Below are positions 20,421-45,766 of a DNA stretch of 54,561 bases, one piece after another. How positions within the stretch are numbered: the stretch's first letter is position 1; every line of letters starts with the position of its first letter. Below the pieces are notes generated by a model, which was given only the letters and a program-made list of their open reading frames with translations, was not told the DNA's origin and did not search any database. A program made the position numbers and the translations under genes. This stretch comes from an uncultured Desulfomonile sp. (GTDB lineage Bacteria; Desulfobacterota; Desulfomonilia; Desulfomonilales; Desulfomonilaceae): assembly GCA_903952205.1 (NCBI GenBank), contig CAJBEZ010000085.1:1-54561 (forward strand), given 5' to 3'.

Positions 20421-21035
20421 CTATTTCTTTGCCTCGCTTCTGAGTGACGGATGGGAAGAGGTAAGCGCCTCGACCAATACGTAAGCCGCTTGTAGGGCTT
20501 CTGTGGGGCAAAGGGGGAAACATTCCTTGCAGTTCCAGCACTCCTTTGAGGCTATCTCCGGGATGAAACAGATCTCTTTCCTGATTCCTCTGTCGATAAA
20601 TCCGACAGCGTTCTTCTGCTTGACCTCAGCGCAGTATCTCACACATAGACCACAGTGAATGCAAAAGGAGGCCTCTTTTTCAAAGCGGTTTCTGTCTGCT
20701 CCATACTCCTTGGCAAGATCCTGCAATATGAACGAATCCGGAGCATGGGCCATTTGTAGTTCCAAAATCATTTTACGAATTCTATCTATCTTCTCGGATC
20801 TTGTTCTTACAATTATGTTGTTCTCGGCAGGGTAGACGCAGGAAACAACAATTTTTGTCCAGCCGCGACTCTCGACCTCTACGATACAAAGCCGACACCC
20901 CCCGTACGGTTCCAGTTTCTCGTGGTGACACAGTGTGGGGATAAATATCCCTACGCTTTTGGCCGCTTCTAAGAGGGTCATGTCCTGCTTTGCCTTGACT
21001 TCTCTTCCGTCTATTTTTAACAGGATATCGCTCAT
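20421..21035 (-). CDS. bamI: BamI: NuoG-type 2Fe-2S / 4Fe-4S electron-transfer subunit
   Basis: This 204-residue iron-sulfur protein resembles the N-terminal part of NuoG or HoxU. It has a plant-type 2Fe-2S domain (TLCHHEKLEPYGGCRLCIVEV and a later SC) in residues 1-80, and two 4Fe-4S sets CIHCGLCVRYC near 145 and CWNCKECFPLCP near 180. The ATG overlaps the bamH stop codon by four bases (ATGA). It is the last gene of the operon. Together with BamG and BamH it forms an NADH-dehydrogenase-like module that would oxidise NADH or exchange electrons with BamDEF. The role is taken from the class II benzoyl-CoA reductase complex. Confidence 0.88.
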   Translation of the reverse strand: MSDILLKIDGREVKAKQDMTLLEAAKSVGIFIPTLCHHEKLEPYGGCRLCIVEVESRGWTKIVVSCVYPAENNIIVRTRSEKIDRIRKMILELQMAHAPDSFILQDLAKEYGADRNRFEKEASFCIHCGLCVRYCAEVKQKNAVGFIDRGIRKEICFIPEIASKECWNCKECFPLCPTEALQAAYVLVEALTSSHPSLRSEAKK

Positions 21036-22960
21036 TTTTCTTTTTTCTTTCTGACTATTGTTCGAGCTTCTTCTGGGATTCGCGGCGGAACAGGCTCACC
21101 AGAAATTTTCCGCACCGCTCGGAACCGCGTGGGGCAAACTTCAAAACAGGTTCCACACTTTGTGCATTTGTCCTGGTCAACTATATGAATTAGGTTCTTG
21201 CCGCCTATGATAGCGTCTGAAGGGCATTTCTTAGCGCAGGTCCCGCAACCCTGGCACTTATCCGGGTCAATATAGAAAGAAGTCAGCTCCTTGCACGATA
21301 AAGCAGGGCATCGCTTCTCATTGATATGGGCCTCATACTCATCCCTAAAGTATTTTAACGTACTCAGGAATGGGTTTGGCGAACTCTTCCCCAGTGCGCA
21401 AAGTGAAGCTTCAATAGCCGTCTCGGATAGCTGCTCCAAGAGTTCGAGATCTCCTTCTTTGCCCTTTCCCTGGGTGATGTTGGTGAGAATCTTAAGCATC
21501 TGTCTCATGCCTTCACGGCAGGGGACACACTTACCGCAGGATTCATCGGTCAGAAATTCGAGGAAGTACCTGGCCACATCAACCATACAAGTTTCTTCGT
21601 CCATTATGATCATCCCACCTGAGCCCATCATTGACCCGGCCCTGGTGAGTTCATCAAAACCAACCGGCAAATCCAGCAGTTCATCCGGAATACATCCGCC
21701 GGATGGTCCCCCTGTCTGCACTGCTTTAAACTTCTTGCCTCCGGGGATTCCTCCGCCGATCTTGTAGATAATATCTCTCAGCGTCGTTCCCATAGGCACT
21801 TCTACAAGACCAGTATTGGTTATTTTGCCGACGAGTGAGAAAATTTTTGTGCCTTTGCTGGTGTCAGTTCCGAACTGAGTAAACCAGTCGGCGCCGTTAT
21901 TTATGATGAGCGGCACATTGGCCCATGTCTCGACATTATTCAAAACACTTGGTTTGCCCCAAAGGCCCACGACATTGGAACGGATATACTTCGGTCTGGG
22001 CTCTCCAGCTCTACCTTCCAAGGCCGTCATCAGAGCGGTTGACTCACCGCAGACGAAAGCGCCGGCGCCTTTGTGCACCTTGACAATGAAATCGAATCCT
22101 GATCCAAGAATATTTTTTCCGAGGAGCCCATGTTCCTCGGCTTGCCGAATAGCGATGTTCACATTCTCCACCGCCAAGGGGTATTCCTGTCTTACATAAA
22201 TATAGCCTTCATGCGAACCGATGGCGTAAGCGCCGATAGCCAATCCCTCGAGGACTGAGTGAGGATTCCCCTCGAGAAGACTCCTGTCCATATAAGCTCC
22301 GGGGTCACCTTCATCAGCGTTGACTATTACATACTTTACATCGCTCGGGGCATTACGGGATCCTTCCCACTTGGCTCCTGCCGGAAAACCTCCTCCTCCT
22401 CGTCCTCTGAGGTTGGCTTTCTTGACTTCCTGTAAAACCTCTTCAGGCGTCATCCCGGATAGAGCTTTGGCCAGCGCTGAATAACCACCGATTGCGAGAT
22501 AGTCATCAATATTTTTGGGATCAACATTGACGTTGGAACCAAATACAATACGTCCCTGATTCTTGTAAAATGGGATCTCGGATTCATGAACTATCTTTTC
22601 TTTGGTAGTGGGGTCGGTGTAAAGCAAACGCTCAATAACCTTCTTCTCCTTTATGGTTTCGGAGATAATCTCAGGAGCGTCTTCAGGCTTGATCTGGAAA
22701 TAGCAAGTTTCCTCAGGACGGATAACGATGATCGGACCTCGCTCACAAAAACCGTGGCAGCCGGTCCTCCTAAGTTCTACCTGATCCTCTAGACCTTGTT
22801 TCCGTATCTCTTCCTGGATACTGGTGGCCACTTCACGACTGCCGGAAGCATGGCAGGCGGATCCGGAGCATAGTGTGATGCAGGTTTTATTTGGGTCTCT
22901 TTGTGAAAGGATGTTACTTCTGAAAGTTTCCAATTCAGCAGGTGAATTTATCCGCGACAT
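21032..22960 (-). CDS. bamH: BamH: NuoF-type NAD(H):acceptor oxidoreductase flavoprotein
   Basis: This 642-residue protein has the layout of NuoF-like bifurcating subunits: an N-terminal thioredoxin-like 2Fe-2S domain (CSGSACHASG, GCHGFCERGP, residues 25-105), the NADH/FMN core (NLRGRGGGGFPAGAKW near 195, GAGAFVCGESTAL near 305), the 4Fe-4S motif ESCGKCVPCREG near 480, and a C-terminal ferredoxin domain with two sets (CQGCGTCAKKCP, CTKCGTCFEVCP). It lies 9 bases after bamG and overlaps bamI. It would bind NADH and FMN and pass electrons within the Bam complex. Stand-alone hydrogenase or formate dehydrogenase subunits look alike; the operon decides the name. Confidence 0.92.
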   Translation of the reverse strand: MSRINSPAELETFRSNILSQRDPNKTCITLCSGSACHASGSREVATSIQEEIRKQGLEDQVELRRTGCHGFCERGPIIVIRPEETCYFQIKPEDAPEIISETIKEKKVIERLLYTDPTTKEKIVHESEIPFYKNQGRIVFGSNVNVDPKNIDDYLAIGGYSALAKALSGMTPEEVLQEVKKANLRGRGGGGFPAGAKWEGSRNAPSDVKYVIVNADEGDPGAYMDRSLLEGNPHSVLEGLAIGAYAIGSHEGYIYVRQEYPLAVENVNIAIRQAEEHGLLGKNILGSGFDFIVKVHKGAGAFVCGESTALMTALEGRAGEPRPKYIRSNVVGLWGKPSVLNNVETWANVPLIINNGADWFTQFGTDTSKGTKIFSLVGKITNTGLVEVPMGTTLRDIIYKIGGGIPGGKKFKAVQTGGPSGGCIPDELLDLPVGFDELTRAGSMMGSGGMIIMDEETCMVDVARYFLEFLTDESCGKCVPCREGMRQMLKILTNITQGKGKEGDLELLEQLSETAIEASLCALGKSSPNPFLSTLKYFRDEYEAHINEKRCPALSCKELTSFYIDPDKCQGCGTCAKKCPSDAIIGGKNLIHIVDQDKCTKCGTCFEVCPTRFRAVRKISGEPVPPRIPEEARTIVRKKKEK

Positions 22961-22969
22961 AGTTTTTCC

Positions 22970-23422
22970 TTAGTCGTAATTTTTTAACACGTCTGCGGTC
23001 TGTGCAGGCGCCATCTTGCCGTGAGTCTTTCCGTCTATTTCGACCACGGGTCCCAAAGCGCAGCATCCAAGGCAGTTAACCGTTTCCAGGCTGAACTTGA
23101 GATCAAGGTCGGTTTCACCCGGCTTAATTCCGGTCATGCCTTCCACTGTGTCGAGCACCCGAGACGCTCCCCGTACATGGCATGCCGTTCCCACACAAAT
23201 ATGGATTTGATGGCGTCCCTTAGGAACCAAACTAAAGGCTTTATAGAAGGTGGCGATATGTTGTATCCGGGTCAGAGGAACCTGCAGTCTTTCGGCGACT
23301 CTCTCCACAGCTTCCTTAGGAAGCCAGTTATTTTCTGCCTGAATGTCTAGTAGGACCTGAATTAGATAACTGGGATCGCAGTTGTGTTTATCAATAATCT
23401 GGTCAACTCTGTCTTTTTCCAT
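22970..23422 (-). CDS. bamG: BamG: NuoE-type thioredoxin-like 2Fe-2S subunit
   Basis: This 150-residue protein is a NuoE homologue with an N-terminal helical domain and a thioredoxin-like 2Fe-2S domain. The four ligands are in CVGTACHVRG near residue 85 and CLGCCALGP near residue 125. It begins about 50 bases after bamF and lies 9 bases before bamH. In the complex it is the partner of BamH. Confidence 0.92.
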   Translation of the reverse strand: MEKDRVDQIIDKHNCDPSYLIQVLLDIQAENNWLPKEAVERVAERLQVPLTRIQHIATFYKAFSLVPKGRHQIHICVGTACHVRGASRVLDTVEGMTGIKPGETDLDLKFSLETVNCLGCCALGPVVEIDGKTHGKMAPAQTADVLKNYD

Positions 23423-23475
23423 AGGCTCTATCCTAGTCTTGTTTATTACTTCTGATCCACCGCTGGTTCTTGGCC

Positions 23476-24243
23476 TCAGGCGAGCGCATAACGATTCTGA
23501 GTTTGATCGTATCTGACCAATCTTTGCTTCGATGAGGCGTTAAGGTGTCTTGACACTTTGGATGGGGTTAGCCCTAAACTTTTGGCGATTTCGGCAGTCG
23601 ACAGAGGACCTTCTCTCAGAAGCGAAACTATTTGTGATATTGATAGCTTATCTGCGATTGTTTCTTCAAATAGCCGCTTCAGTTCGTCGCTGTCAAAGAA
23701 TTTACGGAACTCATCTTCCGTCATGGCAGGCAGCCTTAAACGCTCCCGTTCAACGAGTCTTATATAGGGGATAAGCTGGATGACGGATTCGAGTTTGAAA
23801 CTTAATTCCTTCTCGGTTAGGCCTTCTCCCCGTCCAATGGGTCCCAGTTCCTTCACATTCCTGACAAACCCATTAACCCCCTCGACAAAAAGGTTGGATT
23901 CACTGCCCGACATGAATTCGATCCTCAATCTCTCCGGGTTAAGCCCAATGTGTTCCAACAATTTCCTGGAAAGATTCACCATGGTTAGCGCATGGTAATT
24001 CCCGTGAGTGATATAGTTGCATTCATTCAAATGGCAGGCGCCAAGGAATACCCCGTCCGCTCCCTTTAAGAAAGCTCGGAACACATGCGCCATATCGACT
24101 CGACCAGAACACATGACGCGGATAAGTCTCATTTCAGTTGTATATTGACTTCTGGAAACTCCAGCTAAGTCGGCTGCGCCGTATGCTCACCAATGGCATA
24201 CAAAACCCAATATCTTTGGTTTAAATTTAAGCCCTGCGCTCAT
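23476..24243 (-). CDS. bamF: BamF: MvhD-type iron-sulfur selenoprotein (UGA = Sec at codon 19) with C-terminal winged helix
   Basis: This is an FlpD/MvhD-family electron carrier that links HdrA to other modules. A start at 24132 would miss the family's N-terminus. Upstream, from the ATG at 24243 behind GAGGTG, the frame reads KILGFVCHW, then UGA at 24189-24187, then AYGAADLAGVSRSQY, matching the MvhD cluster motif C-x-W-C with Sec in place of the second Cys. Further ligands are C45, C70 and C75. A hairpin right after the UGA supports recoding. Residues about 199-252 form an extra winged helix (ISQIVSLLREGPLSTAEIAKSL), absent from the usual 140-residue MvhD. Total 255 residues. It follows bamE by 50 bases. 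Confidence 0.88.
24147..24171 (-). promoter_or_regulatory. SECIS-like hairpin of bamF
   Basis: On the minus strand, 16 bases after the UGA at 24189-24187, GACTT pairs with AAGTC and, after a two-base AG bulge, CTGGA pairs with TCCAG around a GTT loop. This ten-base-pair hairpin has the position and bulged shape of bacterial SECIS elements, which lie inside the coding sequence directly 3' of the Sec codon and bind SelB. Confidence 0.65.
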
Positions 24244-24293
24244 ACGTTTTCACCTCTTACTTCGTCATCTCTACTTTATTCATTGAAATGTTT

Positions 24294-27200
24294 CTACATA
24301 GCGGCAACCGCTGCGTCAATTGGCTGTATGATCTTTTCCTCGGGGAAAGCAGCGTCAATTGCGCTCAAAAGCTCCTCGTCCGTGAAATGCTTCAACTGTA
24401 TCGCATTAGTGGCGCACTTTGTGTTGCACAGACCATCACCTTTACACAGGACTGGGTTGACCCGTGCCTTCCTGCCCTGCGAGGATTCATAAAAATCTAT
24501 GGCCCCGTAGTTGCAAACCGTTATGCAGGCCCCGCAAGAAACACACTTATTCTCATCCACCTCGGCCACAGAACCGGAAGCTACAATCGAATCACGCGAA
24601 AGAAGTGTTAAAACTCGACCTGCGGCTCCATAAGCCTGGTTGATTGTTTCATTTATGAACTTGGGATAATGAGCCAGACCGCATAGATATACGCCATCTG
24701 TGCCAAACTCAACAGGCCTTAATTTGACATGAGCTTCTTTGAAGAAACCATCAGGGTTCAAAGTAACCTTGAACAATCCTGCGATTTCTTTCGTCGATTC
24801 TGAAGGAATGACCGCCGCCGCCAAAGAAACTATATCCGCGTCCAGCAGAAGTTTCTTTCCCAGGATAAAATCGGTCACAGTAACCTTTAGAACCGGCTGC
24901 CCCTCGTCCGACTCGCCAGCTTCAACCTCAGGTAGATCCTGAGGTTCATAGCGAATGAACTTTATGTCCTTGTTTGAAGCCTCACGGTAATAGTCCTCAT
25001 TGAAACCATAGGTTCTCATATCCCGAAAGAGGACGTAAATGTCCATTTCTGGATTTATCTCTTTAAGTTTCAATGCATTCTTTACGGCCTGACTGCAACA
25101 CAAACGACTGCAGTAGTTTCTGTCTTCATTTCTGCAGCCTACGCACTGGATCATCGCCAGACTCTTTGCGTTTATTATATTCTCATCTCTCTGGGTGATT
25201 TTCCCCTCTAACTCAAGATGGGTCATCACCCTTTCATCTTCACCATAAAGATATTCGGCGGGAGTATACAGATCAGCGCCTATAGCCAAAACAGCCGCCC
25301 CGTGTTTTATCTCCGTGAATCCTCTATCAGACTTCACCGTTGTCGCGAAGTTGCCGACATAGCCTTTGGCGTCAAGGATTTTGGCGTCATGGTAGACATG
25401 TATAAGGGGGTGTTGGTACACCTTCGTTATGAGATCTCTGAGGTATTCCTGAACATCAAGCCCATCTAAAGTGGAATGAATTCTTAGGGCTATTCCGCCA
25501 AGTTCCGTGTTTTTTTCTACTAAGTGCGCCTCATGCCCCTGATTGGCAATGGAGAGAGCGCAATTCATACCGGCTATACCGCCACCGACCACCAACGCAG
25601 CCTTGTCAACAGGCAGGTTAAACTCCTGCAAAGGTTCCAAACAGCAAGCTCTCGCTACCGACATCCGAATGATATCCTTTGCTTTTTGTGTGGCCTCTTC
25701 TTTTTCTTTAGAGTGAACCCATGAGTTGTGTTCCCTTATGTTGGCCATTTCGCAGTAATACTGATTAATACCCGCCTCTCGAACTGTATCCCTAAAAAGT
25801 GGCTCAAGGGTCCTGGGACTGCATGCGGCGACAATAACTCGGTTCAGGCCCTTTTCCTTTGTTATGTCTGTTATTTCTTTGGCTGAGTTTGTAGCGCATG
25901 AAAATAGCTGCTCCTGAGAATAGACAACATTCGGTAATGTTTTGCAGTACTCTACTGTTTCAGGGACATTGACTATCCTTCCGATATTGGCGCCACAATG
26001 ACAAACAAAGACCCCTATCCTTGGCTCCTCTTCGCAAACATTCCTTTCAAGCGGATATAATCTTTCTTTGGCAAGATTTCCTCGCCTGTAATCAAGAAGT
26101 TCACCAATTTGGGAGCCTGCTCCGCTAGCGCTAAAGACCGACTCGGGAATATCGATCGGACCCTGGAAACCTCCACTGACGAAAACCCCAGGTCTGTTCG
26201 TGGACATCGGATTCACAGGGTTGGTTTTGCAAAAATCATGAGGACTGAGTTCTATACCGAATATGTTCGCAATGGACTTCACATCAGTGGGAGGATTCAA
26301 TCCAACCGACAATACCACCATGTCAAATTCTTCTTCCTTCACACCATCTTCGTTCGTAGAATATCGGACCGTGACATTTTTGGTTTCTGGGTCTTCTCTC
26401 ACTATTGACGTGTAGCTTCTGACAAATCTTACTCCCGGGAGTTTCTCCGTCCTCTCGTAGTAGCGCTCAAAATCCTTCCCATAGGACCGAACGTCGTTGT
26501 GAAATATTGTACACTCGACATCCGCATCGTGATCTTTTGTCACTATCACCTGTTTCTGGGTGTAAGTGCAGCATACGGCCGAGCAATAGCTGTTTTCTCC
26601 AGGGGTGACTTTCCTGGAACCGACGCATTGAATCCAGGCTATCTTGTGGGGATGCTTCATGTCGGAACCACGCAGTATCTCGCCTTGGTAAGGGCCCGTG
26701 GAGCATAACAGCCGCTCATAGTCCATGCTGGTTACAATGTTCGCAAACTCTCCGTAGTGATACTCCTTCTTAACCTTAGGATCGAAAGGCTCAAGTCCAG
26801 AAGATAGAATGATCGCTCCAACCTGAATTTCCTTTTTCTCCGCCGTTTGGTTCAAATCTATTGCGTTGTTTTTGCAAACGCCTACGCAAATACGGCATTT
26901 CTTCTCTTTGAGGTAAAGGCAACTTTCATCAATGTACGCAATAAGGGGAATGGCCTGAGCGAAGTATATGTGGACAGCTTTATTCATAGATATTTCCTGA
27001 TTATACTGATCAGGATATTTCGCTGGGCAATATTCTACACAGGTAGTGCAGCCCGTGCACTTATCTTCAAGAATGTACCTGGGTTTCTTGGTCAGGGTCA
27101 CCTTGAAGTTTCCTACTTCCCCCTCTACACTGTTCACTTCAGTGTAGGTGAGGACCTCTATGTTTGGATGCCGGCCGACCTCGACCAGCTTTGGTGAGAG

Positions 27201-27422
27201 AATTCACATACTGCAGTCATTAGTGGGAAAAGTCTTGTCCAACTGCGCCATGTGGCCACCAATGCTTGGAGATTTTTCAACCAGGTAGACCTTGAACCCT
27301 GCCGTCGCAAGATCAAGAGAAGCTTGAATGCCGCTGATTCCACCACCAACAACCATTACGTCTCCAAAATTACTCTTTTGGGAACTCTCGAGCATCTGCT
27401 CTCCCACTTGTTCTGCTTCCAC
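24294..27422 (-). CDS. bamE: BamE: HdrA-type flavoprotein, selenoprotein (UGA = Sec at codon 73)
   Basis: This 1042-residue double HdrA is the flavin electron-bifurcating core. It has an FAD motif [13 protein letters not shown] near residue 25, 4Fe-4S motifs [12 protein letters not shown] and CRICVGVC in the first third, a second FAD domain ([14 protein letters not shown] near 610), and C-terminal ferredoxin motifs [11 protein letters not shown] and [11 protein letters not shown]. The frame is interrupted only by UGA at 27206-27204, exactly where HdrA has [14 protein letters not shown]: here [25 protein letters not shown]. Simple calling splits it into a 72-residue piece and a 947-residue piece. 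A SECIS-like hairpin follows. GAGGAGG precedes the ATG; bamD ends 32 bases upstream. HdrA selenoproteins are known in methanogens and sulfate reducers. Confidence 0.92.
27171..27188 (-). promoter_or_regulatory. SECIS-like hairpin of bamE
   Basis: On the minus strand, 15 bases after the UGA, CTGGTC pairs with GGCCGG (two G-U pairs) around the six-base loop GAGGTC. The loop shares the GGUC core of the E. coli fdhF SECIS loop (AGGUCU) and lies at nearly the same distance from the UGA. This supports selenocysteine insertion rather than a nonsense mutation. Confidence 0.68.
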
Positions 27423-27454
27423 GTTATATGACCTCCTCAGGGCGCTTTGGTTGA

Positions 27455-28606
27455 CTAAATCAATTCCTGGATGATCTCAGTAATGTCTTTCACCTCGATC
27501 TTTTCGGACAGATTCATTGTTACTCTACTGTCCTCAAGCATCGTAATACAATAGGGGCAGGACGTAGCCAGCACCTCGGCCCCAACCCCGATAGCCTGTT
27601 CTATCCTTATATCGCTGAATCTCTCACCCTTTAGGGTTTCCATCCAAACCCTGCCACCTCCGCCTCCACAGCATAGACTGTCCGCTCGGGACTCAACAAG
27701 CTCTCTAAACTCCAACCCCGGTATCTTGTTCAGGACCGCTCGCGGCTCATCATATACGCCGTTATGGCGACCCAGATAACAAGGGTCGTGATACGTTACT
27801 TTCTTCTCATAATCTTTCTTAAACTGAAGCCGTCCCTCGTTTACCAACTCAAACAGGAACTGTGAGATATGAACTATCTCAAAATCAACCATGAATTCCG
27901 GATACTCGTTTTTGAAAGTATGGTAACAATGAGGGGAAGAAACCAGGATTTTCTTAACCCCATTGTCTATAAAGGCTTTGATGTTTTCTTTGGCGAGACG
28001 CTTGAACAATTCCTCATCGCCCGTCTTACGGATGCTCTCTCCGCAGCAATTCTCCTTGGGACCAAGTATGCCGAAATCCACCCCGGCAAAGTTGAGGATA
28101 TTGGCTGTGGCCCTAGCCACCTTTTTCAACCTTGGGTCATAGCAGAGATAGCAGCCGGGAAAATACAGAATTTCCATACCTTCCGAAAAGGGTTTCACAG
28201 AAAGACCATCCGCCCAGGCCGCCCTTTTTTCCCGATCTTCGCCGAATGGGTTTCCCTGACCAACGAGGCCCGCGTTTATGGTACGGACAGTCTTGACAGT
28301 AGCGGGGTAAACACCATATTCGTTGGCAATCCTGCGTAAGGATACACCAGACTCTATTTGTTTAACGTCTCTAGGGCACTGCTGCGGACATCTTCCACAG
28401 GTGGTGCAACGCCAGATGTCTTCACTTTCGATCTCGGTCAGGCCAAAGGTCGCTTCTCTGACAAGCTTGCGCATACTGAAAGTCGTGACCCGGTTCCAGG
28501 GACAGACAGTGTCGCATAATCCGCACTGGAAGCATCTTTTGAATGCGTCTCCGCCACTTGCTTTAATGACATCGATGATTTCTTTATAGGGGGTTACAGT
28601 TTCCAC
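27455..28606 (-). CDS. bamD: BamD: HdrC-HdrB-type fused iron-sulfur protein
   Basis: This 383-residue protein joins an HdrC-like ferredoxin domain ([12 protein letters not shown] near residue 25 and [12 protein letters not shown] near 68) to an HdrB-like part with two CCG domains ([13 protein letters not shown] with ENCCGES, and [13 protein letters not shown] with [11 protein letters not shown]). CCG domains in HdrB hold non-cubane 4Fe-4S clusters. In the Bam complex it would bridge the HdrA flavoprotein and the BamBC reductase. It lies 32 bases after bamC and 32 before bamE. Confidence 0.92.
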
Positions 28607-28638
28607 TGTCTTGCTTCCTCTTCTCTTGGCCTAATTAT

Positions 28639-29187
28639 CTAGCCCTTCTTTGAAGCTGATATCCGGGACACGGTATCCATGACCTTCTCCCAGCCATATT
28701 TGTCTATCATGGATTCCAGACCGATCTCTACGTCTTCCAGCTTCACATCTTCTTCCACTTCCTCTTCCCTCTCTTCATAAGTCAGGGCGTCAGCGAGGCA
28801 CCACTGTACACACAGGGGTTTTTCCAATGTCGGATCATCTTGGCACATGTCGCATTTTAGAGGGAGACCGGAGTCAGGTTCCTTAAAAATGTCTCTTGAA
28901 GGGCAGGAAGCCCTGCAAAAAGCGCATTCTTCGTATTCCTTTCCATCAATTACATATTTGTCTCTACCCATGCACTCGGCCGAAGCGTATTCCCCCGCAT
29001 ATACAGGAATGTATATGTCCCTGAGCGGCTCACGGATAACCCTAATGCGAGACCTGGCCGGATTATTTCCGCTGTATTTTGGCGCAGAGTGAAACGCTGA
29101 ACATGCGACCTCACATGCCCGGCAACCATTGCATTTATCAACGTCAACCTTTATTGTCTTAACGATTTTCTTCTTTTTCTCAGCCAT
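28639..29187 (-). CDS. bamC: BamC: 4Fe-4S ferredoxin subunit of benzoyl-CoA reductase
   Basis: This 182-residue ferredoxin-like protein carries about three 4Fe-4S sets: CNGCRACEVACSAFH near residue 19, CAFCRASCPSRDIF near 90, and CDMCQDDP...CVQWC near 115-132. After an acidic stretch (EEREEEVEEDVKLEDVE) comes a short helical tail. It is the direct electron donor to BamB, as in the structurally known BamBC unit of Geobacter. It starts 21 bases after bamB. Dimethyl-sulfoxide-reductase-type B subunits share the motif pattern, but operon position argues for BamC. Confidence 0.92.
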   Translation of the reverse strand: MAEKKKKIVKTIKVDVDKCNGCRACEVACSAFHSAPKYSGNNPARSRIRVIREPLRDIYIPVYAGEYASAECMGRDKYVIDGKEYEECAFCRASCPSRDIFKEPDSGLPLKCDMCQDDPTLEKPLCVQWCLADALTYEEREEEVEEDVKLEDVEIGLESMIDKYGWEKVMDTVSRISASKKG

Positions 29188-29208: not shown

Positions 29209-31212
29209 TTAATTATTCTTTGCTTCCGCCAAAATCTCACTGGAAGGATTCTCGGTTTCTGAATAGATACCTCTGCTCTCGAAGTCTTCAGCTACGTAAT
29301 CCAGACCTAATTCATGCAAAGACTCCTTGGTCGGAATACCCTGTTCGTTCCACCCCTTGAATTTGTAATACGTGTCGAGGAGTTCCTTTTCCAAGTCTGG
29401 AAATCGTTTCTTCCAATGGTTCTGCGGAGGCGCTTCATCTTTTCTCCTCATGCCTCTTCTTATATTATTGGCCCTGACCAAAGTCCGGTATCTCTTGGTC
29501 GCCTGTGTTAGTTTGTCTTCATCCATATCGATTCCTGCGCCCGCTGAGATAAATTTGGGGTAATTATGTATGTGATAAGGGGGCTTTAGTGGAAATGAAG
29601 ATAAACCTGAGCACATCCCTAGCGCATCATCGATGTAGTGCATCCTCTCTTGCCAATCAACAATATCGCAACACATTTGAACTGTCGGGTAATAGGGCAT
29701 GGACTTTTCACCTCTCGGCTCCCAATCCAGAAGAATTTGCTTGAACTTGTCATCAGGAACCTGGAACCAATCCCTTACAAAGTCTTCTCGCTCTTCCACT
29801 GTGAAAAAAGGCGCCTGCGGGAACTGTCCTTCAATCTGGGTAATGTTTATCTTCTCGCCGGTAGAATACATAAGGAAATAAATGGGATTCAGCATAGATA
29901 GTTTGAGAGGAAGCTGCTCATGTTTTTTAATATTATTATGCGCATACTCCTCTGCGCCCTTGCCAATTTGTCTGGCAGCCCAGTAAGTTCCATTGGCCAA
30001 GACATCTCCTATTCCTTCCCGGCGGACGATTCTATCTAACAGCCAACGAAATCTTCCTTCATTGTCCGCGGGCATACCCGGGAAATCATCGTCAGTCAAT
30101 ATTCCGTTTTCGTAAAGCTCCAGGGCAAAGGCCATGACTTGTGGTGTTGAGAATCCGTCTACCCCGTATTCTGTAGCGCTTTGGGCAATGCCTAAACCAA
30201 ACTCAAGGTCTGAGAACGCTGCCATGGTATAGGTAAGTTTCGAGAAGCATTTCATCATGTAGGTTGGAAGTCCCGGAGGAGAAATTGTCGCTCCACATGT
30301 CATTGGGCAATTGTAGCAGCTAATCAACCTCGTCCGCATAGTGTCCAACGTCTCTGCCCACTGTCTTGCTATTTCATCATTCCAAAAATCTTTTCTGCGG
30401 ACACGTGAATTTCCCCACATAAAGTTCTCAGTGTGCCACTTTTCGTCATGGACTTTCATTTCCTGGGGCGACCCGAGTCCGGCCAAAATGGGCATGACAC
30501 CGGGAATCGGATTTTCATTCCGGAATTTTATATATTTCAAAACTTCGTTACACAGCTCCATATACTCAGCGGGCTTGGCGACATTAACATCCTTGGTTCC
30601 ACGAACTACTATAGCCTTTAACCCTTTGTCTCCCATGACGGCGCCTATCCCCTGCCGGCTGGCGCTGGACCGCCCTTGCTCAATCGAAGCAAAATAGACC
30701 CTGTTTTCTCCGGCTAGGCCGATGGCGGCAACCTGGGCTTTTGGCTCCTTCAGTTCGTGTCGAATGAGTTCCGCGGTTTCAACTGCGCCCTTCCCCTTTA
30801 GATGAGATGCGTCCCTGATTTCGACTTTGTCGTTATTTATCCATAAATAAACAAGGTTCGGAGACTTACCGCGAAGAATTACCTTGTCATACCCGGCATA
30901 TTTCAACTCAGGCGCCCAGAATCCACCCATCATAGAAAATGCCATTAATAAGGTTTGCGGAGAAATTGTAGAGACAATTGTACGATTGCAACCGGTAGCG
31001 GGTGTCCCGCATAAAAGACCGGCGCTGAATATCAATAGATTGTCAGGCGAAAAGGGGTCGGTTTCAGGGGGAACCCGGTCCCACAATATTTTGGCGTTAG
31101 TGCCAAGACCCCCTAAATAAAGCTCAGTGTCTCTTGGGTCGGTTGCCACCCTTTCAATGTTTCCCCGGGTTAGATCAACTTCCAGATTAAATCCTGTCTC
31201 TGCGTACCTCAT
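29209..31212 (-). CDS. bamB: BamB: tungsten-containing active-site subunit of class II benzoyl-CoA reductase
   Basis: This 667-residue enzyme of the aldehyde:ferredoxin oxidoreductase family reduces the aromatic ring of benzoyl-CoA to a cyclic diene without ATP. A start at 31212 behind AGGGG gives numbering that matches my memory of Geobacter BamB: E251, H255, E257 and H260 in EMKVHDEKWH (proton-transfer residues) and C322 in MKCFSK (tungsten ligand). The 4Fe-4S ligands are C299, C302, C306 (CYNCPMTC) and probably C534. The N-terminal segment GGLGTNAKIL and QGRSSASRQGIGAVMGDKGLKA bind the pterins. It is the first gene of bamBCDEFGHI. AOR paralogues with other acyl-CoA substrates exist, so benzoyl-CoA specificity is inferred. 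Confidence 0.9.
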   Translation of the reverse strand: MRYAETGFNLEVDLTRGNIERVATDPRDTELYLGGLGTNAKILWDRVPPETDPFSPDNLLIFSAGLLCGTPATGCNRTIVSTISPQTLLMAFSMMGGFWAPELKYAGYDKVILRGKSPNLVYLWINNDKVEIRDASHLKGKGAVETAELIRHELKEPKAQVAAIGLAGENRVYFASIEQGRSSASRQGIGAVMGDKGLKAIVVRGTKDVNVAKPAEYMELCNEVLKYIKFRNENPIPGVMPILAGLGSPQEMKVHDEKWHTENFMWGNSRVRRKDFWNDEIARQWAETLDTMRTRLISCYNCPMTCGATISPPGLPTYMMKCFSKLTYTMAAFSDLEFGLGIAQSATEYGVDGFSTPQVMAFALELYENGILTDDDFPGMPADNEGRFRWLLDRIVRREGIGDVLANGTYWAARQIGKGAEEYAHNNIKKHEQLPLKLSMLNPIYFLMYSTGEKINITQIEGQFPQAPFFTVEEREDFVRDWFQVPDDKFKQILLDWEPRGEKSMPYYPTVQMCCDIVDWQERMHYIDDALGMCSGLSSFPLKPPYHIHNYPKFISAGAGIDMDEDKLTQATKRYRTLVRANNIRRGMRRKDEAPPQNHWKKRFPDLEKELLDTYYKFKGWNEQGIPTKESLHELGLDYVAEDFESRGIYSETENPSSEILAEAKNN

Positions 31213-31402
31213 CTTATTTACCCCTTACAGTCATCTCGCGAAATGCTCGTCAGCGCTCCTGCAACCAAAAAAGTTTTAATACCTATTCGCTAAATGGGCC
31301 ATACCAGTCTTATTTAGACAATATTAGTCTCGGTATGATGTGAAGTATAATAATTCCATTCAGGCCCGCTTCCGGGCTCTATAAAGTTATGCAGACCAAT
31401 AC

Positions 31403-31430
31403 TTGACGCCATCCTTTATTCGAATATAAC
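31403..31430 (+). promoter_or_regulatory. Candidate promoter of the tandem-TetR gene
   Basis: TTGACG (31403-31408), a 16-base spacer and TATAAC (31425-31430) read toward the regulator gene. With the bamB promoter it forms an inverted arrangement in which TTGAC (31403-31407) mirrors GTCAA (31446-31450) and the two -10 boxes overlap, so the two polymerases should exclude each other. Confidence 0.5.
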
Positions 31431-31450
31431 TTATATAAAACCCATGTCAA
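31423..31450 (-). promoter_or_regulatory. Candidate bamB promoter
   Basis: Reading the minus strand, TTGACA (31450-31445) is followed after 16 bases by TATATT (31428-31423). Transcription would begin near 31416, leaving about 200 bases of leader before bamB. It shares its -10 region with the promoter facing the opposite way. Confidence 0.55.
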
Positions 31451-31490
31451 GACTTTTTGAATTGCGCCAAAACCCATGTTAATTGGCGCA
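31437..31490. promoter_or_regulatory. Candidate operator repeats in the bamB/regulator intergenic region
   Basis: AAAACCCATGT occurs twice in the same direction, at 31437-31447 and 31469-31479, 32 bases apart (about three helical turns). The second copy lies inside a perfect inverted repeat TGCGCCAA (31463-31470) / TTGGCGCA (31483-31490). The first copy overlaps the -35 of the bamB promoter. This would suit a repressor with two DNA-binding domains. The rest of the gap 31213-31739 is AT-rich with no further clear structure. Confidence 0.45.
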
Positions 31491-31739
31491 GGAAGAGATT
31501 TAGCTTGAATTTACAGCCGAATGCCGACAATTTATTGAAAAAACTTTGTGTGATATCCTTAGCGCAGGCCAATATCATTTAAAAATCCACTAGCAAACTA
31601 ATTTACTGATAAAACCCCAAATTCCGACGCCTTACACACCTCGCAACCAAGAATGTTCTTGACTCCATATCATGCGAGTGGTATTCGGTTTTTGATTAAA
31701 ATATTATGATCATTGTATTCGCTGCCCAGAGATATAATT

Positions 31740-32996
31740 ATGGACTATACCGGATCACCTGGAAGCACTGTCGAAAAGGTGTCCTCCACAAAAACAAGAA
31801 GCCCTTCGGCAGACAGGAAGCGCAGACTCATAATAGAATCCGCGGAGCGCATTTTTGCCGGCCAAGGTTTTCATGATACCACTATCGCTGATATTTCGCA
31901 TGATTCAGGCGTACATGAAGCCTCCATATTCCAATATTTTAAAACCAAAGAAAATCTGATCGTCACCATTCCGGAAAGACATCTCAAAGAGACGCTTGCA
32001 GGTATCACTGAACATCTTCAAGGTATGAAGGGGGCGGAACCAAAGATAAGAAAGTTACTGTGGCATCAGCTAAGAGACCTCTCTGTAAATAAAGACTACA
32101 CGTCTATTTTGCTACGTGAACTGCGGACATTGCCTGCTTTCTACCTGTCCCCAGCATATGAAATGATTCGAAAATACAGTGTCTTCGCAGCGGAGGCTAT
32201 CAGAGAGGGAATAAGTGATCAGGAAGTTGACGCTGATATAGAGCTTATTCTGGTTTTGGAGATGATATTCGGAGCCATCGACAGCATTGTTTTACGGTGG
32301 CTTTTTTTCGGCGACCCTTATGATCCCAATGATGCCGCCGATGCTCTATGCTCCTTAATAAAAGCGGCTATATGGAGAAGCGAACAGCCAGTTGGGAATG
32401 AAAATGGAGATGAACCGACCCGTGGGGAGTTGCGTCGGCGCACAATAATGGAAGTGGCCTCGGAAGTTTTCGGCAAAAAGGGTTACGGAGGCGCCACCAT
32501 CTCGGAAATAGCGGGGAAAGTGGGCATAGCGGACGCTTCAATTTATCAATATTTCAAGAGCAAAGAACAACTGCTTCTTTCGGTGCTGGGAACCTGGTTC
32601 GTTGAATTGACTGATGAGTTGGAGCGCAGTTTTTCCGGGGAATTAAATCCGCATGAACGACTCTTATATTTGCTTAGAAGGTGGGCTCTGGATTTCCAGA
32701 TTCGAGAATGGGAGACTCGTGTTTTCATACTGGAATTATACCGAAATCCGAGATTTTATGAATCTGAAGAATACCGGAACACCCAGTGTTTCTGGAAACT
32801 GATACGAAGTACAGTGGAAGCCGGACAACAGAGCGGCCATTTTCGCAAGGATTTCGAAATCAGCTATTACCTGCATCTTGTCCAAGGAGCATTTGAGCAT
32901 GAGGCGCTCGCTCGCATGATGCTCTCCAAAAAACAACCCACGATAGCGGGCACGGAACAGTTGATCAACCTTCTCCTCAGAGCTATAAAGGTTTGA
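31740..32996 (+). CDS. Tandem (double) TetR-family regulator
   Basis: This 418-residue protein contains two complete TetR units in one chain. Unit 1 has its helix-turn-helix at about residues 28-75 (RLIIESAERIFAGQGFHDTTIADIS...) and unit 2 at about 226-272 (IMEVASEVFGKKGYGGATISEIAGKVG), each ending in the hallmark SIFQYFKTK or SIYQYFKSK and followed by its own helical ligand domain. TetR proteins are normally about 200 residues and dimerise, so this is a covalent pseudo-dimer. The ATG at 31740 is chosen over the TTG at 31713 for lack of a site at either. It is divergent from bamB across repeat-rich DNA and is the likely regulator of the bam operon. Confidence 0.87.
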   Translation: MDYTGSPGSTVEKVSSTKTRSPSADRKRRLIIESAERIFAGQGFHDTTIADISHDSGVHEASIFQYFKTKENLIVTIPERHLKETLAGITEHLQGMKGAEPKIRKLLWHQLRDLSVNKDYTSILLRELRTLPAFYLSPAYEMIRKYSVFAAEAIREGISDQEVDADIELILVLEMIFGAIDSIVLRWLFFGDPYDPNDAADALCSLIKAAIWRSEQPVGNENGDEPTRGELRRRTIMEVASEVFGKKGYGGATISEIAGKVGIADASIYQYFKSKEQLLLSVLGTWFVELTDELERSFSGELNPHERLLYLLRRWALDFQIREWETRVFILELYRNPRFYESEEYRNTQCFWKLIRSTVEAGQQSGHFRKDFEISYYLHLVQGAFEHEALARMMLSKKQPTIAGTEQLINLLLRAIKV

Positions 32997-35318: not shown

Positions 35319-38300
35319 ATGACTCAGATCCAAAGGATAATCGTTGCTGCGCTTCTGTTCCTATTTCTCCTAACGCAGTCATTGTTTGCGGAACAGATCA
35401 AACAGTCAAAAAATGTCCTGGTCCTCTATAGCGAGGATACGGAGCATCCAGCCCACAAATTGACTGAAATTGGGATCAGGAAAACCTTCCGGTCGAACAA
35501 ACAGTTCGATGTCCAACTGTATACGGAATATCTGGATATGTCCCGGTTCCGCAGTCCCGCTCATTCCAGCGCATTGGTCGATTACCTGAGTCGTAAATAC
35601 GCCGATATGAAGATCGACGCCATTATCACTACGTACCCGCCAACAATGGATCTACTTCTGGGCGAGGCCAGGGCAGCGTTCCCAGGGGTCCCGATTATCG
35701 CCTCTCCGGTGTCCTTGTCCTACGGCGAGAATCTTGACAAATCCCCATCCCGGAGTTTTGTCACCGGCGCAATCATGGGGGAAAACATTACAGGAGTTCT
35801 AGACTACGCCCTTCGAATCAGACCGGACACAAAGAGAGTCGCCCTGATATCGGGTGCAGGGCCAAATGACACTTATGGTGAGCAGATATTCCGCAACGGC
35901 CTCAAACCATATTCAGGGAAGCTTGAGTTAATCGACCTTACCAGGTTGCCGATGGAGGACATCCTTGCAAAGGTCAAATCTCTTCCCCCAAACACCATCA
36001 TTCTCTACTCAGCCCTTTTTAGAGACGGGGCAGGCAAGAGCTTTGTTCCCCGTGAAGCGCTCTCACAAATTTCCCTCGCTGCCAATGCGCCGGTATTCGG
36101 CCTTTACGATACGCTTCTTGGCCACGGCATAGTCGGAGGGCGACTGGTGAGCTTTGAGCGGCTAGGAAACGAAGCGGCCGAACTTACTCTTCGCATTCTA
36201 GGTGGTGAGGCGCCGGCGTCCATACCCTTCGGTGGACAACAGGCATACGTCAATCTCTATGATGGGCGAGAATTAAAGCGATGGGGTATCTCAGAGACCA
36301 CCGTCCTTCCCGGGAGCGAAATCCGGTATCGGCAGCCTTCATTGTGGGAACAGTATTCACTGGTAATTATAGGGGTGGCCGTCATAATAATGCTGGAACT
36401 GGCTCTCATCTTAGGGCTTCTCACAAATATTCTGAGACGTCGAAAGGCCGAAGGCGCTCTGATCGAGAGTGAAACCCGTGTTAGGCTGGCGGTGTGGTCT
36501 GCCGGAGCAGGGTTGTGGACTTTAAACACCGCCACCGGGCTTCTCTGGGTTTCGAACAAGGCCCGTGAGATGATGGGTGTTGCTTTGGACGCAGAGTTGA
36601 ACTCTGAAAAGTTTCTCACTCTTGTCCATCCCGAGGACCGCGAGCGTGTTGGCCTGGCTATGCGACAGACCTTGCAACCGGAACAGGATGGTCGTATCGA
36701 ATACCGTGTCGTGCTTGCTGACGGCAATGTTCGATGGATCGAGTCATTTAGTAGCAGGCTGCACAAAACGGCCGAGGATGAGAACTCGCTGACGGGTGTG
36801 TCTGTCGACATTACCGAGCGCAAACGCGCAGAGGAGGATCGCCGGCAATACCAGGAGAAACTCGAAGCGCTCGTGGAGGAACGGACTGCCAGTTTGCGGG
36901 AAAGTGAAAAAAAGTTTCGTTCCATGTTTGAAAACTCCCTCGATGGAATACTGTTTACAACCCAGGAGGGTGAGATCTTAAACGCAAATGAGGCTGCATG
37001 CGAAATGTTGGGACGGACAAAGGAACAGCTTTGCGAGATCGGGAGAGAAGGCGTTGTAGACAAGTCTGATTTTGGGCTAGCTGACGCAATGGGGGGAAGA
37101 CTACTGGAGGGACGATGGAAAGGGAAACTCGACTTCAAACGTAGCGACGGGACCATATTCCCTGTTGAGGTATCCTCCAACATATTTAAGGACGAGCATG
37201 GCAATGAAAGAGCCGTAATAGCAATTCGAGACATCACTGAGCGCAAGCGGATGGAGGATGAACTGCGTAATGCGAAGGAGGAATGGGAAAAAACCTTCAA
37301 TGCTGTTCCTGACTTGATCATAATCCTGAGCAATGATCACAAGATAATTCGTGTCAATCGGGCCATGGCCGAACGGTTGGGACTCCATGCTGAAGATTGT
37401 ATAGGCCTTATTTGTTATGAAACGGTACATGGGACTGACGCTCCTCCGGTCTTTTGTCCTCATTGCCTGCTTTTGGACGATGGAAAGGAACACTCCGTCG
37501 AGGTTCATGAGGAGCGCCTGGGGGGAGATTACATAGTTACAGCGTCCCCTCTTCTAGATTCTGGTGGCCATATTTTCGGCAGTGTTCATGTGGCCCGAGA
37601 CATTACCGAACGCAAGCAGGCGGAGGTGGCGTTGCGGGAGAGCGAGGCGCTCTTTCGAACAGCCATCGACGCCTCTCCAGATGGCTTCGTGATCACGGAT
37701 ATGAATGGCTACATTCAGATGGCCTCTCCCTCAATATTGAGGATGCGCGGCTGCGAACGGGAAGAGGACCTGCTGGGACATTTTGGTCTCGAGTTCTATC
37801 TCCCGGAAGATTGGGATTACTGCAAATCATACATCACACGCGTCCTGGACAAGGAAAACCCGGGCCCTGACGAATTCCGGGCGGTAAGGGTTGATGGAAG
37901 CCTGATAGATATCGAGTCAAATGGCGTGTTAATCCTGGGCGCAGACGGGCAGCCCACTGGACTGCTGTACATAATGCGCGACATTACCCAACGCAAGCTG
38001 ACTGAGGATGCCCTTCGAATATCTCAGGAAAAATTCACCAAGGCGTTTATGTTAAGCCCCGACGTTATTATGTATAGTCGGCTAGATGACGGAAAGATTG
38101 CTTTCGTCAATGAAGCATTTAAGGAGATTTTTGGTGATGATGAGACAATTATTGGCAAGACTGGTCTGGAAATAAATTTATGGGATGACCCTGAAGACAG
38201 GAAGAAAGTATACGAGATTCTGGAAGCTGAAGGTAAATTAAACAATTTTGAGTTCTTTTTTCGTAACAAATACGGGGATAAGCGGTGTGGACTCATGTCA

Positions 38301-39587
38301 TCCGGAGTTCTCGAGGTCAATGGAGTAGAGTATCTTCTCACTTTTGGAAGAGACATCACTGACAATAAGCGATTGGAGGCTGAGCGACTGGAGATGGAAC
38401 GGAAACTTCTCCACGCTCAGAAACTCGAGAGTCTCGGAGTTATGGCCGGTGGCATCGCTCACGATTTCAACAACCTGTTGATGGCGATTATGGGCGGCCT
38501 GGAGTTTGCTCTTGATGATCCGGCCCTGACGACCAAGACACGCAGCAGTATCGAGACAGCGATGCGGGCGTCTGAGAGATCAGCGGAACTCTCTCGCCAG
38601 ATGCTGATCTACTCGGGAAGCGCCTACTATACCCCGAAGGAGCTGGATCTCGGCGAACTAGCGAACAAACTGGCGCACGAAAACGAGCACCTGTTCATTT
38701 CTGTTATCCCGCAGACTACGACGCTAAATTTCAAAATAAATCAAGGTCTTCCTCTCATTCGGGGGGATGCGGACCAGATACAGCGGGTAATCACAAATCT
38801 GGTCATAAACGCATCTGAAGCGATAGGGAAAAACTCTGGCGATGTGACGCTCAAAACCAGTGTCATGGATTGCGATGAGTCGTATCTTGGCCGTAGTCGA
38901 TTGGAAGAAAAGCCTGAGCCAGGCGAGTTCGTCTTTGTCGAAGTGACTGACACTGGTTGTGGTATGGATGCCGAAACCCAGCACAAGCTCTTTGATCCGT
39001 TTTTCACAACAAAGTTCTGGGGTCGTGGCCTTGGTATGGCCGAAGTGATGGGTACAGTAAAGGGTCATCATGGCGCTATAACCGTGGATAGCGAGTTTGG
39101 GAAGGGAACCACAATCCGGGTTCTGTTTCCTGTGGCGACAAGGGTTCAGCCATTAGCAGTCACTGACGTGGAGATAGCGGAGACTGGATCATCGGTTCCG
39201 GATAGCGCTACTAAGCGAAAAACCGTTCTCGTAGTCGATGATGAGGAACTCGTTCGGAACATGGTCCTTTCGCGTCTGGAGGTTCTTGGCTACGATACGA
39301 TTTCCGCAGTTGATGGCGCTGAAGGGGTCCATCTTTTTCGCGAGCGGCTGAACGAAATTGATCTTGTGCTGCTTGATTTCGCAATGCCCAGGATGAACGG
39401 AGTTGAAGCTTTCGGGGAACTCAGACGGATGAGGCCCGACGTGAAAGTAATCTTAAGTAGCGGTTACACTGAAGATGCTGTATCGAAGAGCTTTCCTGGT
39501 CCCAAACCTGCTGGATTTTTGAGCAAGCCTTACAAGCTGGAGGCGCTCAAGGCTGAACTGGATCTATTGCTAGGGACCGAGGGTTAA
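35319..39587 (+). CDS. Hybrid histidine kinase 1: ABC-type binding domain, five PAS, HisKA, HATPase, receiver
   Basis: This 1422-residue membrane sensor begins with a signal sequence (residues 5-24) and a periplasmic binding-protein-like domain (about 30-335, similar to the ABC_sub_bind family), then a transmembrane helix near 346-371. Five PAS domains follow (about 385-510, 525-640, 650-765, 775-890, 900-1020), most ending in the DITERK motif. The HisKA box has AHDFNN with His about 1048, the HATPase has DTGCGMD and GRGLGM, and a receiver with Asp about 1353 ends the chain. It would sense a small ligand and phosphorylate its receiver. No output regulator is adjacent. Confidence 0.9.
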   Translation: MTQIQRIIVAALLFLFLLTQSLFAEQIKQSKNVLVLYSEDTEHPAHKLTEIGIRKTFRSNKQFDVQLYTEYLDMSRFRSPAHSSALVDYLSRKYADMKIDAIITTYPPTMDLLLGEARAAFPGVPIIASPVSLSYGENLDKSPSRSFVTGAIMGENITGVLDYALRIRPDTKRVALISGAGPNDTYGEQIFRNGLKPYSGKLELIDLTRLPMEDILAKVKSLPPNTIILYSALFRDGAGKSFVPREALSQISLAANAPVFGLYDTLLGHGIVGGRLVSFERLGNEAAELTLRILGGEAPASIPFGGQQAYVNLYDGRELKRWGISETTVLPGSEIRYRQPSLWEQYSLVIIGVAVIIMLELALILGLLTNILRRRKAEGALIESETRVRLAVWSAGAGLWTLNTATGLLWVSNKAREMMGVALDAELNSEKFLTLVHPEDRERVGLAMRQTLQPEQDGRIEYRVVLADGNVRWIESFSSRLHKTAEDENSLTGVSVDITERKRAEEDRRQYQEKLEALVEERTASLRESEKKFRSMFENSLDGILFTTQEGEILNANEAACEMLGRTKEQLCEIGREGVVDKSDFGLADAMGGRLLEGRWKGKLDFKRSDGTIFPVEVSSNIFKDEHGNERAVIAIRDITERKRMEDELRNAKEEWEKTFNAVPDLIIILSNDHKIIRVNRAMAERLGLHAEDCIGLICYETVHGTDAPPVFCPHCLLLDDGKEHSVEVHEERLGGDYIVTASPLLDSGGHIFGSVHVARDITERKQAEVALRESEALFRTAIDASPDGFVITDMNGYIQMASPSILRMRGCEREEDLLGHFGLEFYLPEDWDYCKSYITRVLDKENPGPDEFRAVRVDGSLIDIESNGVLILGADGQPTGLLYIMRDITQRKLTEDALRISQEKFTKAFMLSPDVIMYSRLDDGKIAFVNEAFKEIFGDDETIIGKTGLEINLWDDPEDRKKVYEILEAEGKLNNFEFFFRNKYGDKRCGLMSSGVLEVNGVEYLLTFGRDITDNKRLEAERLEMERKLLHAQKLESLGVMAGGIAHDFNNLLMAIMGGLEFALDDPALTTKTRSSIETAMRASERSAELSRQMLIYSGSAYYTPKELDLGELANKLAHENEHLFISVIPQTTTLNFKINQGLPLIRGDADQIQRVITNLVINASEAIGKNSGDVTLKTSVMDCDESYLGRSRLEEKPEPGEFVFVEVTDTGCGMDAETQHKLFDPFFTTKFWGRGLGMAEVMGTVKGHHGAITVDSEFGKGTTIRVLFPVATRVQPLAVTDVEIAETGSSVPDSATKRKTVLVVDDEELVRNMVLSRLEVLGYDTISAVDGAEGVHLFRERLNEIDLVLLDFAMPRMNGVEAFGELRRMRPDVKVILSSGYTEDAVSKSFPGPKPAGFLSKPYKLEALKAELDLLLGTEG

Positions 39588-39631
39588 GATCTCTGGCGGC
39601 GCCGTGCGACTGGAAGCCGCTAGTCCTGAAA

Positions 39632-39695
39632 TGTAGAAGCGGTGCCCTGCCGCTTATTATTCACTTCTATAAAGAAGCTGGAAGCTTCTTCTACA
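39632..39695. repeat. Palindrome-ended intergenic element with two hairpins
   Basis: A 64-base segment begins TGTAGAA and ends TTCTACA. Inside are two hairpins: AAGCGG (39637-39642) with CCGCTT (39650-39655), and AAGAAGCT (39672-39679) with AGCTTCTT (39683-39690) around GGA. The symmetric ends and internal stems resemble a REP- or MITE-like unit; it may also act as a terminator between kinases 1 and 2. Confidence 0.5.
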
Positions 39696-39786
39696 ATGAT
39701 TTTTCAATACTTCCCGACTGCGATGTGATATGAAATCATAGGGATAGTAGTTTCAAACTGCCCAGCCTCATCAGGGAGGTCCTCTT

Positions 39787-42366: not shown

Positions 42367-42402
42367 GGCTGTCTTCTGTCATTTGGGCCTTTGGGAGAAT
42401 TG

Positions 42403-42761
42403 ATGAAAAATAAGGACACTGCCAGAATCCTGATCGTAGATGACCAAATCCATGCGCTTCAGGGTGTTTCCAGAATCATGAGGTGGCGGGATACGAGGTA
42501 TTGGAGGCAAGTAACGGCACAGATTGTTTGAAGCTGACTGCAGAACACAAGCCTGATTTGATTCTTCTGGATGTTGTCTTGCCGGATATTGACGGTCGGG
42601 AGGTTTGTAGGCGTATCAAATCAGATCCTCAAACCGCAGACATCTATGTGGTATACGGGATAGTAGAGCAGCATGGAGGCAGGATTGTTTGTGATAGCGA
42701 ACCATCTGTCGGCACAACATTCAAGATCTATTTTCCTGCGATCGAAGATCTGGCTGAATGA
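42403..42761 (+). pseudogene. Broken receiver / kinase chimera
   Basis: An ATG at 42403 opens a receiver domain (ARILIVDDQIHALQGVSRIM). One base appears to be missing near 42480, and the reading continues in another frame as AGYEVLEASNGTD, PDLILLDVVLPDIDG and CRRIKSDPQTADIY. It then jumps into the end of a histidine-kinase ATPase domain ([28 protein letters not shown]). Two ends of a larger response regulator-kinase gene have therefore been joined by an internal deletion, in addition to the frameshift. It is almost certainly not functional. Confidence 0.75.
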
Positions 42762-42834
42762 ATCCAGGCAGACTGCAAGATATGGCCTTATGCCTGGACA
42801 TGCGTCCTTATTACCACGATGCCGGTCTGCCCCG

Positions 42835-42849
42835 TGTCATTTCGACCGG
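42835..42849. repeat. Short dispersed repeat, copy 2
   Basis: TGTCATTTCGACCGG is identical to the copy at 35255-35269 and is likewise preceded by a CTGCCC stretch. It lies just after the broken receiver/kinase chimera. Confidence 0.45.
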
Positions 42850-42931
42850 AAGGAAGAACATTGATGCCCTGGCGGGGCACAACCAACAATGAGAATACGC
42901 TCTGGAATCGATCCGTCTGACACTAAACTGA

Positions 42932-45667: not shown

Positions 45668-45766
45668 TAGCGCAGGGCTTACACTTACACTGTTCGATGC
45701 GTGCTGGTATTTTCAAAAACAGCTAGAACTCAACAACTTTCATTTTTGTGAAGAGCGAAAATCCTC

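Follow-up and report, generated by a model that had tools for sequence, protein, structure and literature searches.

A single-chain double TetR protein divergent from bamB and a candidate operator at the bamB promoter in Desulfomonile and its relatives

Single-chain repressors made of two TetR units are already described. According to PMC11667970, Mce3R of M. tuberculosis (PDB 9b7y) carries two TetR units with two unlike helix-turn-helix (HTH) motifs in one chain, pairs these units within the chain in an asymmetric four-helix bundle, and represses lipid-metabolism genes and itself from a nonpalindromic operator; 204 double TetR repressors are predicted in actinomycetes. TetR control of anaerobic aromatic degradation also has a precedent. 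According to PMC4424350, MbdR of Azoarcus sp. CIB (PDB 4uds) is a repressor of such a pathway that is released by 3-methylbenzoyl-CoA; it is a single-unit homodimer acting on 3-methylbenzoate genes through palindromic ATACN10GTAT operators, which overlap the -10 and, in one promoter, also the -35. A third known system is FadR (YsiA) of Bacillus (PDB 3whb, 3whc, 1vi0), an acyl-CoA-binding fatty-acid regulator. It is a single-unit protein of another pathway, is released by long-chain acyl-CoA and has been solved with stearoyl-CoA.

For ATP-independent benzoyl-CoA reductase in sulfate reducers, the literature searched, seen in part, describes no dedicated regulator, and the accessible sections of PMC11887813 name no bam regulator. 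No double TetR at bam genes was recognised in the literature covered (subscription journals lay outside its scope, and one search was dominated by chemistry). Here we computed the architecture and conservation of a double TetR protein encoded opposite bamB, together with a conserved element at the bamB promoter and the distribution of that element.

A conserved double TetR gene opposite bamB

The window, the whole stretch of 54,561 nucleotides analysed here, is contig 85 of a 4.78-Mb genome that is 99.99% complete. Its regulator gene (tetR) is one uninterrupted reading frame from ATG to stop (Table 1), which the program-made list of reading frames starts earlier, at TTG 31713. Pfam TetR_N matched the chain twice, scoring 95.7 bits over its full length and 43.2 and 55.9 bits when each half was scanned by itself (cutoff 24), and the N and C halves align without gaps over 185 columns with 24% identity (E 2e-18), bearing out the original prediction of two full TetR units covalently joined. 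Two TetR_N stretches above cutoff and a predicted structure that matches TetR structures place the protein in the TetR family; with two complete units, both HTHs retained and a single chain, it has the double TetR architecture of the Mce3R kind.

Table 1. Positions in the window of the regulator gene, the bam genes and the conserved or predicted elements between them
Feature	Positions	Strand	Basis or detail
bamC to bamI-like genes	20421..29187	-	Pfam/NCBIfam domains and gene order
bamB, class II benzoyl-CoA reductase catalytic subunit	29209..31212	-	1268 bits to BamB of Geobacter metallireducens (PDB 4z3w)
Imperfect palindrome conserved as a second element (relatives: RCCAAGTCTYGGTC)	31394..31407	.	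just downstream of the candidate operator, in the bamB leader
Candidate operator overlapping the bamB promoter (bamB strand: TTATATAAGTTATATTCGAA)	31419..31438	-	conserved block, PWM, held-out test, exact pattern
Predicted bamB sigma-70 promoter, TTGACA-16-TATATT	31423..31450	-	11/12 consensus matches; -10 inside the candidate operator
Diverged copy of the element upstream of tetR, TCATGCGAGTGGTATTCGGT	31670..31689	+	bamB-derived PWM, conserved block
Tandem (double) TetR repressor, 418 aa	31740..32996	+	units at roughly residues 24-215 (N) and 226-417 (C)
First TetR_N helix-turn-helix	31830..31961	+	residues 31-74, Pfam PF00440
Second TetR_N helix-turn-helix	32445..32582	+	residues 236-281, Pfam PF00440

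A frame of this kind might arise from two genes fused by a sequencing error, which the original prediction had named as grounds for abandoning it. The coding sequence is 1254 nt long without internal stops in the window and in seven orthologous sequences, and dN/dS between orthologues is 0.02-0.05 for the N half and 0.05-0.10 for the C half (six of seven pairs with defined dS; several dS values near saturation). Both halves are under strong purifying selection. Because the eight coding sequences are equally long, stop-free and under selection in both halves, an erroneous join is ruled out.

Structure prediction, proposed at the outset as a check, gave a single-chain model from 33 doubles (pLDDT 84.7, pTM 0.77). 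Among solved structures, the one that fits both of its units best is Mce3R (Z 20.2 over 290 residues, rmsd 4.8). Foldseek likewise matched the model to Mce3R (E 5.2e-7) at an rmsd of 16.4 over 409 columns, so the relative placing of the two units is uncertain. FadR, also with stearoyl-CoA, matched with Z 18.4 over 187 residues, and MbdR with Z 14.9. At the level of sequence, the best NCBIfam match of both halves is Bacillus FadR (NF053878; 90.7 and 70.1 bits), and the N unit scores above the cutoff of TetR_C_4, a model of FadR-like ligand domains (34.7 bits against 21); the whole chain reaches 156.2 bits against the FadR equivalog, under its 200-bit cutoff. A profile of the 33 doubles scored 146-149 bits with FadR versus 71.8 with the whole chain of Mce3R (9b7y), where the best stretch, the only one displayed, lies over one HTH region and no stretch exceeds the limit by itself; another comparison with 9b7y gave 32.6 bits. 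Since the doubles are nearer in sequence to single-unit FadR than to Mce3R, the comparison suggests that the Desulfobacterota double TetR and Mce3R are separate fusions.

More distant double TetR proteins share the two-unit layout at 24-34% identity with the window protein and occur here and there in the phylum. Of 395 genomes, 23 yielded matches at E<=1e-38, although some of these matches (such as those in G053, G186 and G255) span one unit only. In a tree with long branches, the bam-type N halves and C halves each form their own clade, 22 other doubles likewise split into an N-half clade (100/100) and a C-half clade (99/99), and three doubles (L125, L136 and L138) fall outside the N and C clades. 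The two halves of the L136 protein (L136:7998-9164) are sisters (98/88), which points to a separate, later duplication. Within the stretch around each of 25 remote-double loci, at least two of five acyl-CoA gene families lie near 14 and at least one near 19 (raw counts); the twenty-sixth locus, L129, left out of this count, also has two such families nearby. No bamB was seen beside the remote doubles, and the literature searched describes no targets for them.

The window carries a class II benzoyl-CoA reductase locus, with a BamB orthologue followed by electron-transfer genes. The frames at 28639, 27455, 24294, 23476, 22970, 21032 and 20421 have the domains expected for bamC to bamI (ferredoxin, HdrC/D-like, HdrA-like, FlpD and NuoE/F/G-like), and we infer the gene letters from order and domains. 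Two in-frame TGA codons on the minus strand are candidate selenocysteine codons, one at 27204-27206 in a 14-letter HdrA context (bamE-like) and the other at 24187-24189 in the FlpD context GFVCHW-U-AYGAAD (bamF-like), so that the bamE- and bamF-like frames as listed are probably N-truncated. According to PMC5109826, two adjacent locus tags encode BamE of D. multivorans. The FlpD/bamF-like protein (23476-24132, minus strand) ends in an HTH_5 domain of the ArsR type (41.8 bits, cutoff 22), which would make it an electron-transfer subunit fused to a DNA-binding domain. Elsewhere in the window, an LsrF-family thiolase gene (16937-17866, minus strand; 440.8 bits, cutoff 297) adjoins an alcohol dehydrogenase gene, and four related large genes (35319, 39787, 43118 and 45767) cluster at 35319-48154; domain scans of the first three identified a PAS histidine kinase in each, with an additional receiver domain in two of them and a solute-binding domain in the other.

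Orthologues of the double TetR, defined by 75% identity or more, are present in 13 of 18 genomes of the family, the window's own and that of the cultured Desulfomonile tiedjei DSM 6799 included; contig ends interrupt four of them. Conservation of the place opposite bamB was decisive for the original prediction, and it holds: bamB is divergent from the regulator gene, at 413-1073 bp, in nine of the ten orthologues with enough upstream sequence, and a chance neighbourhood is rejected. In the tenth (G008), the gene is placed after ligase and Liv-type transporter genes and a receiver-domain gene, with bamB not beside it. Regulator and bamB occur together in 12 of the 18 genomes and are both missing from four; one genome has the regulator only, its gene starting at a contig edge, and one has bamB only (Fisher p 0.008, kinship ignored). 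The original prediction had proposed looking for the double architecture beside other bamB genes; none was seen within about 1.5 kb of bamB in 27 other-family loci, which were the highest-scoring bamB matches outside the family.

A candidate operator at the bamB promoter

The novelty lies in a candidate operator, the 20-bp sequence TTATATAAGTTATATTCGTA, which extends across the -10 region of the bamB promoter. Nine regulator-bamB intergenic regions contain one strong common block, which reads TTGACA-N-TTATATAAGTTATATTCGTA on the bamB strand, and in the window the candidate element falls inside 31400-31500, where an operator had been guessed to lie. We built a position weight matrix (PWM) from the nine bamB-side 20-mers and ran it on bamB genes outside that set, leaving out three bamB pieces with unusable upstream sequence (G006:C333, G002:C64 and G008:C500). 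All eight held-out upstream regions of the family have a site on the bamB strand (15.6-27.8 bits, seven at 20.9 or more): 25.0 in G003, 27.8 and 20.9 in G004, 25.7 in G008, 27.6 in G015, and 15.6, 27.6 and 21.5 at the second copies of G002, D. tiedjei and G012, respectively. These sites include bamB copies without a regulator gene on the same stretch.

The chance scale was set by 26 remote-double loci of 9-17 kb, in which the highest score was 15.6, inside a gene, and no site reached 16 bits. The held-out value of 15.6 is the weakest of the eight because it equals this chance maximum, and the same score was reached once near the D. tiedjei bzdQ operon without a clear target. The element is absent upstream of bamB in the 27 other-family loci, again the highest-scoring matches outside the family (top score 13.0, next 6.7). 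Searching with the exact pattern TTGACA-N8-14-TATAAGTKATATTC gave ten matches in the 18 family genomes and none with the reversed control; nine of these precede bamB and one precedes a bzdQ-bamA operon in D. tiedjei. A one-mismatch core pattern gave 11 matches in five genomes (six at bamB, one at tetR and four elsewhere) against six in the control and is therefore too noisy for naming further targets. The candidate sites in the family are related by descent and are not independent.

In the D. tiedjei bzdQ-bamA operon, the BzdQ-type subunit scored 420.6 bits (cutoff 380.2), and BamA scored 566 bits (cutoff 464.45). Its candidate site, which surfaced in a region chosen for another one-mismatch match nearby, scores only 11.6 under the PWM and is distinguished by the exact core and TTGACA. 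An extension of the regulon to bamA operons across the family was rejected: 13 further regions, 12 from other genomes and one at the other bamA of D. tiedjei, contained no convincing site, the best scores being 11.5 and 11.2 (L256 and L257 are cut off within the operon). The D. tiedjei cluster itself (L216:1107-8615) groups class I type BzdQ and CoA_E_activ subunits with a ferredoxin-like frame, a thiolase, BamA and a gene resembling dienoyl-CoA hydratase (245.1 bits, below the cutoff of 292.5), and it coexists with two class II bamB genes.

The promoter of the regulator gene itself has a diverged copy of the element. On the strand of the regulator gene, the bamB-derived PWM peaks at -69/-70 with a mean of 5.32 over 11 sequences; the next separate place scores -2.74, and the 450 positions average -14.0 (sd 3.4). 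In ten of the 11 sequences no other position within 250 bp scores higher (L009 covers 115 bp only), and in five the site is individually significant (p<0.05 against Markov shuffles). At the D. tiedjei tetR promoter only the TATTCGG half remains (-1.0 bits), and in L010 part of the site is lost to a deletion.

The second conserved element, in the bamB leader, keeps its palindrome through paired changes in D. tiedjei (ACCAAGTCTTGGT) and L008 (ACCGAGTCTCGGT). It may be the site of another regulator or an RNA feature.

Repression as the preferred reading, and its alternatives

We consider it probable that the single-chain, FadR-like double TetR is an autoregulated repressor of bamB that is released by a CoA thioester. 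Three parts of this reading are inferred: that the protein binds the element, that it represses and that its ligand is a CoA ester. The two units of the chain are predicted to pair intramolecularly, like the two subunits of an ordinary TetR dimer, and two different recognition helices would read the unlike halves of the imperfectly symmetric candidate operator. Since this site overlaps the bamB -10 region, the bound protein would block RNA polymerase there, and the diverged copy at the tetR promoter would lead to autorepression. The ligand domain may in turn take up one of the pathway's CoA thioesters, for which benzoyl-CoA or a product of ring reduction is the most likely candidate, and the repressor would then be released.

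The element might instead be merely a strong, lineage-specific sigma-70 promoter of bamB, with the double TetR acting elsewhere or on itself only, a reading that we think unlikely. The predicted promoter overlaps the element with near-consensus hexamers (the region has two promoter-like sites, against 1.8 expected in shuffles), TTGAC stands at a similar distance from the element in both promoters, and, part of the element being the -10, some conservation is expected even without a repressor. However, conservation extends beyond the hexamers (AGT, and TCG after the -10). Furthermore, the consensus of 17 bamB sites agrees at 14 of 20 positions with that of nine of the 11 tetR sites (L010 and D. 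tiedjei left out), whose -10 is poor, and the element is missing from the other-family bamB upstream regions described above.

The symmetry of the site bears on how the chain would pair. In the bamB sites the core ATATAA-G-TTATAT is an imperfect 13-bp dyad with a one-sided TCG extension, and the dyad is weaker in the tetR sites (mean complementary-pair frequency 0.73 in the 17 bamB sites versus 0.51 in the nine tetR sites). The predicted recognition helices are HEASIFQYF in unit 1 and ADASIYQYF in unit 2, the latter being nearer to that of FadR (ADGTIYLYF). An imperfect dyad with a one-sided extension is compatible with two unlike helices, and the two diverged units would fit the asymmetric candidate site, in line with the original idea that they read different half sites. 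Alternatively, two chains could join through matching domains, N with N and C with C, in which case a single protein would have two palindromic sites to read and two ligands to respond to. The authors of the Mce3R work weighed such pairs before they had its structure (PMC11667970), and the dyad on the bamB side would suit them, but Mce3R, whose fold is nearest over the whole chain, pairs intramolecularly, and one shared element with unequal halves was observed rather than two palindromes; we regard this arrangement as quite improbable.

Similarly improbable is that the element is the operator of another regulator encoded elsewhere, with the double TetR a chance or historical neighbour. The element does persist at bamB copies without an adjacent regulator gene: no TetR2-like gene lies on the 17-kb stretch that carries the second D. 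tiedjei bamBC pair, where the candidate operator is present nonetheless, and in G003 (82% complete) it precedes bamB, yet no double TetR orthologue was found. Against this stand the co-occurrence of regulator and bamB in the family and the diverged copy at the double TetR's own promoter, G008 included, which scores 13.4 bits there although bamB is not adjacent. Activation of bamB by the double TetR is very unlikely, given a candidate site over the -10 region and not upstream of the -35, although some TetR-family proteins activate (one matching NCBIfam model is named for the activator FasR).

Comparison with known repressors

Under the preferred reading of a CoA-released repressor, the bam locus yields a repressor candidate and a short candidate operator with exact coordinates, and D. 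tiedjei DSM 6799 offers a cultured organism whose two bamB copies and bzdQ-bamA operon bear the candidate element. It also supplies a second set of proteins for asking what fusion buys a repressor, asymmetric operators or two inputs. A bolder proposal, which we hold to be unlikely, is that the FadR-like double repressors of Desulfobacterota arose independently of the actinobacterial ones and spread over acyl-CoA and aromatic gene clusters, the bam member having an asymmetric operator and two CoA-ester signals. If so, that member, freed from symmetry, would integrate, for example, benzoyl-CoA and a ring-cleavage product or fatty acyl-CoA in one molecule.

The original prediction saw in this gene a good candidate for a new type of control, and in that it went too far. 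The double architecture is already known from Mce3R, which like the window protein combines two TetR units and two unlike HTH motifs in a single chain (PMC11667970) and differs from it in pathway and operator. Release of a TetR repressor by an aromatic CoA ester is likewise described for MbdR; unlike that single-unit homodimer with its palindromic operator, the window protein is a double unit with a different element and is not of the MbdR type. With FadR it has in common that both units match FadR best and that the N unit carries a TetR_C_4 ligand domain. Fused repressors being known elsewhere, the bam double TetR is a new, testable case and not a new principle: in a FadR-like chain, it would unite the double architecture of Mce3R with control of an aromatic pathway as exerted by MbdR.
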